Below, in pieces: positions 52,960 to 56,557 of a stretch of DNA of 64,000 nucleotides (the stretch's first letter is position 1; every line of letters starts with the position of its first letter). The stretch is taken from positions 620,001-684,000 of the forward strand of contig NZ_JAVDDX010000002.1 of NCBI RefSeq assembly GCF_030848575.1. Reading direction: 5' to 3'. The position numbers and the translations under genes were made by a program. The stretch is from Haloarcula sp. H-GB4. GTDB lineage: Archaea > Halobacteriota > Halobacteria > Halobacteriales > Haloarculaceae. Below the pieces are notes generated by a model that was given only the letters and a program-made list of their open reading frames with translations, had not been told where the DNA came from and did no database searches.

Positions 52960-53586
52960 ATGAGTAAAATAACGTTCCGTGCTGACGATGACCTCATCGA
53001 CCAACTCGAGGCGTTCGACGCCTCGAAGAGTGAGGTCATGCGCGAGGCGCTCCGGGAGTACCTCGGAGACGCGTCACCGTCAGCGTCGGACCTATCGTCG
53101 TCGTCGTCGGAGTCCGTAACCGACGCCGAGACGATCGACGAACTCATCGAAGAACGCGTCGACAGCATCATCGCCGACCGGCTGCAGACGCGACGCCAAC
53201 CCTCGCAACCACAGGATGTCAACGTAAACATCTCGTTAGACGGCGTAAGCACAGGGGCAGCGGACGCCGAAACCGAACGACGGCGCACCGCTGACCGAGG
53301 AGCGAGCACCGAGGGCGAGCGGTCCCACGACGAAGTTCAAACGTCTGATACGAGCAGGCGTAAGACAGAAGCGGAAACACGAGACAGATCCGACACGGAG
53401 GAACGTAAGACGTGCGCGCAATGTGGTGAGAATATAGGTTCTGACCACGTTTACTGCCCGAACTGTGGTGAGAAGGCGTCCCGCCGGGTGTTCTGTGATT
53501 GCGGTGATGAGCTCCGGTCGGACTGGGGTTTCTGCCCGGGTTGTGGTAGACGAACGCCTGCGGCGGATGTACTTGACCAGACCTAA
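52960..53586 (+). CDS. cdrL: CdrL-like regulator: ribbon-helix-helix domain plus zinc ribbons
   Basis: The 208-residue protein starts with a ribbon-helix-helix DNA-binding domain (KITFRADDDLIDQLEAFDAS, KSEVMREALREYLGD). A long Ser/Asp/Glu-rich, probably disordered linker (about 45-145) follows, then two cysteine-rich ribbons (CAQCGENIG, YCPNCGEKA, CDCGDEL, FCPGCGRRT). In haloarchaea the gene upstream of cdrS and ftsZ2 encodes CdrL, which binds the cdrS-ftsZ2 control region. I assign the name by this position and fold. TATA-like runs lie at 52921-52928 and 52938-52944. Confidence 0.78.
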   Translation: MSKITFRADDDLIDQLEAFDASKSEVMREALREYLGDASPSASDLSSSSSESVTDAETIDELIEERVDSIIADRLQTRRQPSQPQDVNVNISLDGVSTGAADAETERRRTADRGASTEGERSHDEVQTSDTSRRKTEAETRDRSDTEERKTCAQCGENIGSDHVYCPNCGEKASRRVFCDCGDELRSDWGFCPGCGRRTPAADVLDQT

Positions 53587-53653
53587 ACTAGCGTTTGCAC
53601 ACGTTACACGCCCTCAAACGCCGTAAACGGGAAAGTGTATGACACTGCCCGTA

Positions 53654-53663
53654 AGTTTTAATA
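53654..53663 (+). promoter_or_regulatory. TATA box for cdrS-ftsZ2
   Basis: AGTTTTAATA predicts transcription from about 53685, leaving a leader of some 140 bases before cdrS. That is long for a haloarchaeon. A second AT-rich element (TTTATTC near 53679) could start slightly further on. Confidence 0.55.
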
Positions 53664-53689
53664 CATCAGGGTCAGTGGTTTATTCTGCG

Positions 53690-53705
53690 TAAGACGGTCG
53701 TCTTA
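53690..53705 (+). promoter_or_regulatory. 16-base palindrome, candidate RHH operator
   Basis: TAAGACG-GT-CGTCTTA has perfect 7-base arms and lies just downstream of the predicted transcription start. That is a good place for repression by a ribbon-helix-helix dimer such as CdrL or CdrS. Confidence 0.55.
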
Positions 53706-53759
53706 CACAGCGATGAACGCGGGGGGATGCCGCCCTCGTACTGCGGTTTCGCTGTGTAA
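53703..53759 (+). promoter_or_regulatory. Long hairpin in the cdrS leader
   Basis: TTACACAGCGA (53703-53713) and TCGCTGTGTAA (53749-53759) are perfect 11-base complements around a GC-rich 35-base loop that can itself pair. It would lie in the transcribed leader. It may control translation, RNA stability or premature termination, or be a DNA-binding site. Confidence 0.5.
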
Positions 53760-53795
53760 ACACTCGTGCGGGTCGTAAACAGATCCCGTCCGGGC

Positions 53796-53802
53796 CGTCT
53801 TA
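53796..53802 (+). promoter_or_regulatory. Extra CGTCTTA half-site before cdrS
   Basis: CGTCTTA repeats one arm of the 53690-53705 palindrome, 21 bases before the cdrS start. It may be an accessory site for the same regulator. Confidence 0.35.
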
Positions 53803-53823
53803 CCCAAGGGGAAACTACCAAAC

Positions 53824-54000
53824 ATGGAGCGTGTGACACTACGGATTCCGAAGCAGCAGATTGAAGAGGTCGAACAGATGGTCGAGACGGGCGAGTACCC
53901 CAATCGGAGCGAAGCGATTCGCTCGGCGGTTCGGGAAATGCTCGCCGAGGAAGGCTCCGAGCAAGCCTCCGAAAAGAAGCGGTCCTGGGCCAAGGTGTAA
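53824..54000 (+). CDS. cdrS: CdrS, short ribbon-helix-helix cell-division regulator
   Basis: The 58-residue protein is a bare ribbon-helix-helix: beta strand [10 protein letters not shown], helix [10 protein letters not shown], turn EYPNRSEAI and helix [11 protein letters not shown], then a charged tail. Two bases separate its stop from the ftsZ2 start, so the genes are co-transcribed. CdrS in Halobacterium and Haloferax regulates ftsZ2 and many division genes. The name follows from fold, size and this exact gene order. Confidence 0.9.
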
Positions 54001-54002
54001 CG

Positions 54003-55241
54003 ATGCAGGATATCGTTAACGAGGCCCTCGAACGCGACGAGCAAGAAAAGAAGAAGATGTCCGACGAGGATGTCGACGGGTTCGGCGACCCGCGCATCGT
54101 CATCGTCGGCTGTGGTGGCGCCGGCAACAACACGGTCAACCGCCTGTACAACATCGGCGTCGAGGGCGCTGACACCGTGGCCATCAACACGGACAAACAG
54201 CACCTCAAGATGATCGAAGCCGACACGAAGATTCTGGTCGGCAAGTCCCTCACCAACGGCCTCGGTGCCGGCGGTGACCCGTCGATGGGCGAGCGCGCCA
54301 CGGAGATGGCACAGGGGACTATCAAGGAAGTGCTGGGCGACGCTGACCTCGTGTTCGTCACCGCCGGCATGGGTGGCGGAACCGGAACGGGTGCCGCCCC
54401 CGTCGTCTCGAAGATCGCCAAGGAACAGGGCGCAATCGTCGTCGGCATGGTGTCGACACCGTTCAACGTCGAGCGGGCCCGCACGGTCAAGGCCGAGGAA
54501 GGGCTGGAGAAGCTCCGCAACGAAGCGGACTCCATCATCGTGCTGGACAACAACCGCCTGCTCGATTACGTCCCGAACCTCCCGATCGGCAAGGCGTTCT
54601 CCGTGATGGACCAGATCATCGCCGAGACCGTCAAAGGCATCTCGGAGACCATCACGCAGCCGAGCCTCATCAACCTCGACTACGCCGACATGACATCCAT
54701 CATGAATCAGGGCGGCGTCGCGGTGATGCTGGTCGGCGAGACCCAGGACAAGAACAAGACCGAGGAGGTCGTCAAGGACGCGATGAACCATCCGCTGCTT
54801 GACGTGGACTACCGCGGCGCGAGCGGTGGTCTAGTCCACATCACCGGCGGCCCGGACCTCACGCTGAAGGAGGCCGAGGGCATCGCACAGAACATCACCG
54901 AGCGGCTCGAGGCCGACGCCAACGTCATCTGGGGCGCACGGATTCAGGAAGAGTACAAGGGCAAGGTGCGGGTCATGGCCATCATGACCGGCGTCCAGTC
55001 CGCGCAGGTACTCGGTCCGACGACCCAGAAGCAGGCCAACAAGTCCCGCGAGGCGATTCAGGAAGTCGGCGACGACACGTCCTTCGATGCGTCCGACAAC
55101 GTCGAAAGCTTCGACAGTCCCGCTCCGAACAGCGGGAATCAGAGCAGCGGCGGTCGCACCACCGGCTACAGCGAGACTGACGGTGGGCAGGACCAGCGCG
55201 AGAAGAACAACGGACTCGACGTCATCCGGACCAACAAGTAA
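54003..55241 (+). CDS. ftsZ2: Cell-division GTPase FtsZ2
   Basis: FtsZ is the tubulin-like GTPase that forms the division ring at midcell. The 412-residue protein has [14 protein letters not shown] at the N-terminus, the tubulin signature [10 protein letters not shown] (about 123-132), the [11 protein letters not shown] loop with the T7 catalytic Asp region, and a disordered, Ser/Gly/Asp-rich C-tail after about residue 345. The last residues ([11 protein letters not shown]) may be the partner-binding tail. Linkage to the cdrS-type gene marks it as the FtsZ2 paralogue, which works in constriction, rather than FtsZ1. Confidence 0.93.
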
Positions 55242-55246
55242 CGTCG

Positions 55247-55262
55247 TTTCGTTTTCTGTTTT
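55247..55262 (+). terminator. T-rich terminator after ftsZ2
   Basis: Three T runs separated by one to three bases begin 6 bases after the ftsZ2 stop codon. U-rich tracts without a stem are the usual archaeal terminator. The convergent pilin-domain gene ends at 55280. Confidence 0.5.
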
Positions 55263-55279
55263 CGCTGTCGAACTCGATA

Positions 55280-56557
55280 TCAGACGGCACCAGTTTCAAC
55301 GTCACCGTCGACCTGTGAGCCGCTGTCGTCAGTCAGGAACTTCCGTTCCCAGTCCCCGGTTGGCTGGTCGATGTTATCGACGTATCGCAGCTTCCCGCTA
55401 CTGTCTCCGATATAGACGAGTTCGTCAGCGCCGTCGTCGTCAACGTCCGCTGCGGCGACAGCGGACTGTTTCGCACTCGGTGCAGTGCCGCCTGTGACGT
55501 CCCCACTTTCGATTTTGGTGTCGCTACTGGCGTCGATCATGTGTATGTCGTTGCCGCCATCGACGACTGCGACACGGGTCCGGCCGTCGCTGTCGAAATC
55601 ACCCAGCGTGCCGGCCCCCATACCAGTGCTCGCGCCGAGTGTCGGGCCGACCGGTGTCGGCGTTCCGCCCGGCGAGTCGTAGTACTGGAGTTGGGCGCTC
55701 GCGTCGGCGAAAATGAACTCGTCGTCGCTGTCTGCATCGATGTCACCGATACCGAGTACCGCCGTGCCGCCATCGCCGGGGTCGGCGATACGCGTGGCCG
55801 ACCCGCCAGTAGGAGCACAGTAGATATCGTCGTCATCACCAGCGAAAAACACGCCCGTACAGCCGTCCCAGGTCCCGCTGGCGAGGCGAGTCTTGTCCGT
55901 ATCGATACCAGCGCCGGTAGGAATACTGGTAGTGACAGTTTCGACAGTCCCGTCGGTCGCGACAATCTTGATTTCGCCGCCGCTTGTGGCATACGGAACC
56001 TCGATAGTGCCGTCGCTGTCGATATCCATTGCCGGACCGAGTGCCGTCGGCTCGGTCGGCGTCGCAAGCGTCGTCGTGTCTCCCGTGGTCCCGGCTATCT
56101 GTCTGACACCGCCGGGAGCCCCGGTAAACACCGTGCCGACCGCGAGGGTGTCCGCGGTAGTCGCCGGTCTAAATGTCGAGAGCACGTACGACGACGGTGC
56201 GCCGTCGCGCTCGGTCCAAACGACACGGACAGAGTCCGACCGGGCTTGCACGAGGACCGACTTCCCGGCCGTGAACGCTATGCCTGCGAGCGCGTCGGGG
56301 TCGGCTACGCCGCGCAGTGTGATCCGGTCGCCATCGATGGTGTCACCGGATTCGTGGACGAGGCGATACTCGCCCGGCGTGTCTGTCTGCTCCAGCGCGA
56401 GCGTAGCCTGTGGCGCTGGGTCCTGCAGCTCGGTGAGACCGAAGACGAACCCAGCTGACACGGCGGCCAGCAGAAGGACGATACCCATCAATAGCACCGT
56501 TCCGACGACCGGCGAGACAGCGCGTTCTGACAGAGAGTGAGACGCGACCCGACACAT
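55280..56557 (-). CDS. Pilin-domain-anchored FG-GAP/VCBS beta-propeller protein
   Basis: The 425-residue protein starts with an archaeal type IV pilin N-domain (DUF1628): SERAVSPVVGTVLLMGIVLL, with the hydrophobic helix at about 11-37, to be cut by the prepilin peptidase. After a beta domain (to about 165) the rest carries repeated D-x-D-x-D-G calcium-loop motifs of FG-GAP/VCBS blades (DIDSDGTIEV, DIDADSDDEF, DFDSDGRTRV, DVDDDGADEL). It is likely a surface protein held or assembled through a pilin helix, with a propeller for adhesion or binding. The start at 56557 follows the pilin pattern; the frame continues further upstream over the next gene. Confidence 0.83.
   Translation of the reverse strand: MCRVASHSLSERAVSPVVGTVLLMGIVLLLAAVSAGFVFGLTELQDPAPQATLALEQTDTPGEYRLVHESGDTIDGDRITLRGVADPDALAGIAFTAGKSVLVQARSDSVRVVWTERDGAPSSYVLSTFRPATTADTLAVGTVFTGAPGGVRQIAGTTGDTTTLATPTEPTALGPAMDIDSDGTIEVPYATSGGEIKIVATDGTVETVTTSIPTGAGIDTDKTRLASGTWDGCTGVFFAGDDDDIYCAPTGGSATRIADPGDGGTAVLGIGDIDADSDDEFIFADASAQLQYYDSPGGTPTPVGPTLGASTGMGAGTLGDFDSDGRTRVAVVDGGNDIHMIDASSDTKIESGDVTGGTAPSAKQSAVAAADVDDDGADELVYIGDSSGKLRYVDNIDQPTGDWERKFLTDDSGSQVDGDVETGAV

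Follow-up and report, generated by a model that had tools for sequence, protein, structure and literature searches.

A palindrome at the predicted transcription start of the haloarchaeal cdrS-ftsZ2 operon, a candidate operator that shares bases with a conserved, probably folded leader RNA

Ribbon-helix-helix (RHH) proteins of bacteria, among them Arc, MetJ, CopG and NikR, bind operators built of short, near-symmetric tandem half-sites about one helical turn apart. In archaea, few transcription factors have been linked to FtsZ-based division; the RHH proteins CdrS and CdrL are two of them. CdrL has been reported from Halobacteria only, and in Hbt. salinarum its sole reproducible ChIP-seq site is upstream of cdrS-ftsZ2, with a peak that covers the operator region without base resolution (Darnell et al., 2020; PMC7439475). 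That promoter is like the one described here in operon, gene order, regulator and a ChIP peak in this region; the text of the paper makes no mention of a motif, palindrome, UTR or leader, and the site sequence, the array, the leader RNA and the ancestry are added here. The H. volcanii CdrS motif is likewise a symmetric RHH motif with 11-bp spacing (Haloferax ftsZ1 GTCGGAC-N4-GTCTGAC or similar), but it has a GTCNGAC half-site and occurs at several sites per genome, versus one here, and its sites lie mostly 41-110 nt upstream of the start, whereas the palindrome here lies on the start (Liao et al., 2021; PMC8406309). SegB and aCcr1 are also archaeal RHH proteins with palindromic sites before cell-cycle genes, probably in feedback; unlike the present case, their site is TCTAGA-S-TCTAGA, with 46 sites in the S. 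solfataricus genome, and the available part of the source notes no structured leader (PMC12284271).

Here, we describe the cdrS-ftsZ2 upstream region in a 64-kb stretch of a 4.19 Mb Haloarcula genome (hereafter the window; G000:C2:620001-684000), in which cdrL and cdrS flank a palindrome (Table 1). In contrast to bacterial RHH operators, the candidate operator is predicted to lie within the transcript, where its arms would form stems of a conserved leader RNA. We consider it probable that the region is a two-layer control element, in which an RHH-bound DNA operator and a folded leader RNA share bases, and as such it would be a clear example of a sequence constrained both as a protein-binding site and as a folded RNA. 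Genetically tractable laboratory strains make either layer open to test. The leader RNA and the half-site array are undescribed in the freely accessible journal literature searched, and no paper was found there resolving how CdrS or CdrL reach cdrS-ftsZ2.

Loci containing cdrS came from Haloarcula and its family, from further families of the order and from a public genome collection; spacings were counted in 138 cdrS loci, and folds and signatures in 86 non-redundant leaders. For the palindrome census, the pattern GTAAGAC-N2..6-GTCTTAC was searched in 392 Halobacteriales genomes, with the reversed pattern as control. The presence of CdrL was scored by whole-protein search, Pfam CdrL_M being too insensitive as a presence test. 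CdrS is 100% identical among close Haloarcula, and its PDB matches are NikR and CopG/Arc/MetJ-family antitoxin chains.

Table 1. Positions of genes, promoter features, half-sites and RNA stems in the window
Feature	Position	Strand	Remarks
cdrL	52960..53586	+	208 aa; RHH, CdrL middle region and double zinc ribbon; Pfam RHH_1, CdrL_M (PF24252), DZR
Site R, GTAAGAC in cdrL coding sequence	53360..53366	+	329 bp before A
Site U, half-site upstream of BRE/TATA	53637..53643		GTATGAC here; GTCTTAC in most of class; 52 bp before A
TATA box TTTTAATA	53656..53663	+	TATA-like match begins 32-33 bp before A in 104/138 loci
Predicted transcription start	53687	+	31 nt past first TATA base; from spacing and Y-R-C pattern
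A, first palindrome arm and 5' strand of closing RNA stem	53689..53697	+	GTAAGACGG; nearly invariant
B, second palindrome arm and base of RNA stem P1	53700..53706	+	GTCTTAC, 11 bp from A
RNA stem P1, 5' strand TTACACAGCGA	53703..53713	+	Compensatory changes in inner pairs
P1 inner hairpin (P1a)	53718..53745	+	Strands 53718-53726 and 53733-53745 in the window's predicted fold
RNA stem P1, 3' strand TCGCTGTGTAA	53749..53759	+	Perfect complement of P1 5' strand
C, third half-site position	53756..53762	+	GTAAACA here; decayed in Haloarcula, GTAAGAC elsewhere
RNA hairpin P2	53765..53792	+	Strands 53765-53774 and 53782-53792; compensatory pairs within genus
D, extra half-site and 3' strand of closing stem with A	53795..53803	+	CCGTCTTAC
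cdrS	53824..54000	+	58 aa RHH regulator; Pfam RHH_1
ftsZ2	54003..55241	+	Pfam Tubulin and FtsZ_C

An earlier sequence-only reading had proposed a TATA box, a palindrome, a long hairpin and an extra half-site in a leader of about 140 bases. The palindrome (TAAGACGGTCGTCTTA, 53690-53705), the 11-base stem (53703-53713/53749-53759, perfectly complementary) and CGTCTTA at 53796-53802 are all where it placed them, and the TATA box is present, although at 53656-53663 and not at 53654-53663. Every part that it named is real; its list missed U (53637), R (53360), the A:D pairing (53689-53697/53795-53803) and the second hairpin (53765-53792). An exact match to the palindrome is unique in the genome, and the five copies of GTAAGAC/GTCTTAC in the window all fall within 53360-53803. 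Among the Halobacteriales genomes, 373/392 carry the palindrome pattern, as a single copy in all but one (G381, with two), and the reversed pattern is nearly always at zero; in the loci read, the palindrome sits in front of cdrS, on the promoter. Chance falls far short of explaining these figures. The palindrome is an exact candidate operator of rare constancy, with one copy per genome across an order. In the whole Haloarcula genome, GTAAGAC occurs 50/49 times against 167/148 for the reversed control, about three times more rarely, a scarcity that may reflect avoidance of stray sites or merely base-step composition.

Immediately before A, the 86 leaders always have a pyrimidine at A-3 and a purine at A-2, and C at A-1 in 97%. 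This Y-R-C pattern has the form expected of a transcription start at A-2 (window 53687), and from the TATA spacing and the class-wide signature together the start is predicted at about 53687 and the leader at 137 nt, as against the 140 or so first proposed. A cdrS-only RNA of about 250 nt has been reported in H. volcanii (PMC8406309), versus about 309 nt predicted from the start placed in this way, so that processing or another start is possible. The spacing from A to B is 11 bp in 117/138 loci, C is offset from A by 66-68 bp in most loci, and D is placed 20-30 nt before the start codon. Upstream, half-sites with at most one mismatch to GTCTTAC concentrate at U, with 47 of the 86 leaders at -52 and 12 at -53 over a background of 0.07 per offset. 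Between TATA and start, CTGTGG is found at A-16 to A-11 (window 53673-53678), each position being kept in about 70-90% of the 86 leaders, and is a possible additional promoter element.

A further half-site, R, lies inside cdrL, in its variable linker. It is found in 52/80 cdrL genes, its orientation and frame always constant, and in nearly all carriers it lies 312-350 bp before A. The first encoded residue varies between R, S and G with the bases unchanged, 53/56 such tripeptides are encoded by GTAAGAC, and CGT makes up only 18% of cdrL Arg codons; judged by this coding pattern, site R is constrained at the nucleotide level. It may serve in looping, as a roadblock within cdrL, or in pairing between RNAs. 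A second GTAAGAC copy in cdrL, at 53405-53411, is common to several Haloarcula and relatives.

The sequence-only reading had pointed to CdrL and CdrS as RHH proteins that bind short palindromes. The RHH-type layout of the site holds, its two near-symmetric half-sites being 11 bp apart, about one helical turn; between the two proteins, CdrL is the likeliest reader. The occurrence of the site once per genome is what a CdrL-specific operator would show. CdrS is ranked lower because its motif, as deduced here from the ftsZ1 promoter, is GTCNGAC and because cdrS's own promoter is absent from the H. volcanii CdrS ChIP table, which has a target in front of ftsZ1 at -50 (PMC8406309). The half-sites of A-B resemble GTCNGAC but are GTAAGAC/GTCTTAC. 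The N-terminus of CdrS is MERVTLRIP in 156/160 loci and that of CdrL, among the loci with a CdrL hit, is mostly (S/T)KITFRA, so the putative DNA-contacting strands differ by R/K at residue 3. The leaders read from families f2 and f13 lack an intact palindrome, and CdrL is likewise missing next to them. Four complete or nearly complete genomes (G046, G073, G059 and G072) keep the palindrome at cdrS with CdrL undetected by whole-protein search, from which it follows that CdrL is not the sole reader and that the palindrome may be read by CdrS or a further protein as well. The literature claims CdrL in all sequenced Halobacteria; these four are without a detectable one.

In the predicted fold of the window leader, a closed three-way junction, the A:D stem does the closing, P1 joins B and the bases next to it to the P1 3' arm and carries an inner hairpin, and P2 stands before D; the energy of the fold is -60 kcal/mol versus -45.4 (sd 3.9) for shuffles (z -3.8). 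A:D and B:C are present together in 75/86 minimum-energy folds of the non-redundant leaders. Because the half-sites hardly vary, the covariation test rests on the pairs outside them. For inner P1 pairs 9-12, pairing is 66-77% within species and 45-53% when the arms are mixed across species. Over both stems there are 99 pairing-preserving double-change cells, versus 52.8 in shuffles (0/500 reaching it), and the highest slid control gives 67. In a tree made from the coding sequence downstream, 16 compensatory double events fall on inner P1; slid pairings give 0-5, and no more than 8 are seen in any of 265 same-column re-pairings. Arms and half-sites are therefore conserved across haloarchaea and the arms covary, as the comparison proposed with the sequence-only reading anticipated, and this conservation and covariation support its central suggestion that operator palindrome and RNA stem share bases.

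Within Haloarcula alone, compensatory changes are found in 9/32 consensus pairs, spanning P1, P1a, P2 and the closing stem, and this consensus fold is well supported. At P1a it includes an inner stem with compensatory changes, in a register not exactly the window's. On the genus alignment, the window's own fold gives 21 double-change cells versus 23, with two slid controls not beaten. RNAalifold on the alignment of 86 leaders recovered the A:D stem alone, since MAFFT leaves the divergent P1 loop unaligned, and the fold was assessed on the genus alignment and by anchored tests instead. The leader thus has the conserved secondary structure and the covariation of the structured cis-regulatory leaders in Rfam, and like them it is a conserved, covarying 5' leader RNA before one operon family; unlike them it matches no family, a search of 53000-55300 with the Rfam 15 covariance models at E up to 1 giving zero matches. 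It is a candidate for a new structured RNA, carried on the ftsZ2 message.

Two rival accounts each take one layer as sufficient. In the first, R, U, A, B, C and D are a phased RHH operator array and the RNA pairing is incidental to inverted repeats. This accommodates U and R, which have the same sequence as the other sites yet lie outside the leader RNA, as well as the RHH-type 11-bp spacing of A-B and the arrays of CdrS-type sites in methanogen leaders (below). We nevertheless think it unlikely, because covariation reaches past the half-sites into inner P1, P1a and P2, and because in Haloarcula the C half-site has decayed while the P1 stem is retained. D, too, changes almost solely to bases that still pair with A: over the 9-bp A:D complement 99.5% of cells are paired, the variants being G-U, U-G and A-U pairs, and in f13 (L149) A and D have changed together, to GTAAGACAG and CTGTCTTAC. 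The extra half-site of the sequence-only reading is accordingly real but best explained as the RNA partner of A, not simply as a further operator. Families f9 and f11 have lost both C and D, which counts against the two-layer element.

In the second, no protein recognises the palindrome as DNA, and the half-sites are there for the leader fold. Both the deep conservation of the fold and the complementarity that A and D retain in f2 and f13, despite the decay of B, are as this account would have it. It is extremely improbable all the same: leader folding cannot explain U, at a fixed 52 bp and upstream of TATA, or R, in cdrL, since both are outside the leader RNA, CdrL binds the region in vivo (PMC7439475), and the ftsZ1 site has an equal layout without such a leader.

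The sequence-only reading had gone further, to a feedback switch; its mechanistic form, a switch between two folds, is not supported. In such a switch, A:B + C:D would compete with A:D + B:C, and a protein, a ligand or the speed of transcription would select between them. The four elements can indeed pair with one another in either register, A:B, as the first to be transcribed, would be the first to form, and the minimum-energy folds of five leaders are A:B + C:D, with both A:B and C:D included in that of another. The nested fold, A:D + B:C, is nonetheless the better one in 79/86 leaders, by a median of 4.4 kcal/mol and by 10.6 kcal/mol in the window; covariation for A:B + C:D is not above shuffles, the invariant pairs there being unable to show any, and neither a U-tract nor a sequestered start signal differs between the states. 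With the alternative less stable and without an excess of covariation, a static fold is better supported, and we regard switching as improbable. Two related candidates were rejected: for a C:D stem running inward from the half-sites, paired cells drop to chance past the half-sites, P2 being separate, and a terminator or attenuator was discarded because D is, by inspection, without a following U-rich tract.

In the two-layer element that we prefer, RHH dimers, most likely of CdrL and possibly of CdrS, would occupy GTAAGAC-type half-sites at A-B, U and probably R. Dimers on A-B, which overlaps the predicted transcription start, would impede initiation. At U they could promote it, from a position like the -50 at which CdrS probably activates ftsZ1. 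After transcription, pairing of A with D and of B with C would close the three-way junction (A:D, P1 and P2), leaving about 20 nt between its end and the start codon. The role of the RNA would most likely be sequestration of the 5' end, setting message stability and/or ribosome entry. A and B would be constrained as DNA by the protein, and D and much of C in turn by pairing in the RNA, so that the same bases would serve both layers. Ribosome profiling in Halobacterium suggests post-transcriptional control of the cdrS-ftsZ2 operon (PMC8303175), which fits, without proving, an RNA role of the leader, and the leader RNA offers a possible reason why mRNA and ribosome occupancy of the ftsZ2 operon do not match in the published data. 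A more elaborate version, in which the sequence is read twice, by an RHH protein at the start and in a co-transcriptional choice between palindrome hairpin and three-way junction, and forms a single feedback circuit setting FtsZ2 level and division timing, with the cdrL site as a further contact through looping or RNA pairing, is speculative and strikes us as quite unlikely.

The history of the operator can be traced through its GTCNGAC relatives. The ftsZ1 promoter has GTCNGAC-N4-GTCNGAC in Haloferax, Haloarcula and the Halorubrum-like G067, in the 11-bp layout and with a third base that differs from the cdrS palindrome. This pattern has 1-6 copies per genome and its reverse has 0, and these sites are probably the CdrS regulon. 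Their places include G000:C1:1078315-1078332 and L163-L168, at ftsZ1 and a few others. In methanogen-type relatives, 43 GTCNGAC sites fall in 2,200 bp of cdrS-ftsZ leader and 0 in the 14,845 bp further upstream, often with spacings of 11, 22, 33 or 55 bp. The simplest history would be that CdrS ancestrally regulated its own gene via arrays of GTCNGAC, and that the promoter of cdrS shifted to GTAAGAC in Halobacteria at the arrival of CdrL; by comparison of these sites, the motif split, with GTCNGAC in methanogens and GTAAGAC in haloarchaea, likely follows the gain of CdrL. The methanogen-type leaders (L223-L242) hold GTC(A/T/G)GAC arrays and strong hairpins, such as a long perfect stem in L239. 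Among the haloarchaeal loci, XH8 (Haloferacaceae archaeon, CP132292.1; L045 and L046) has two near-identical cdrS loci with an identical leader, near both chromosome ends, which is either a duplication or an assembly overlap.
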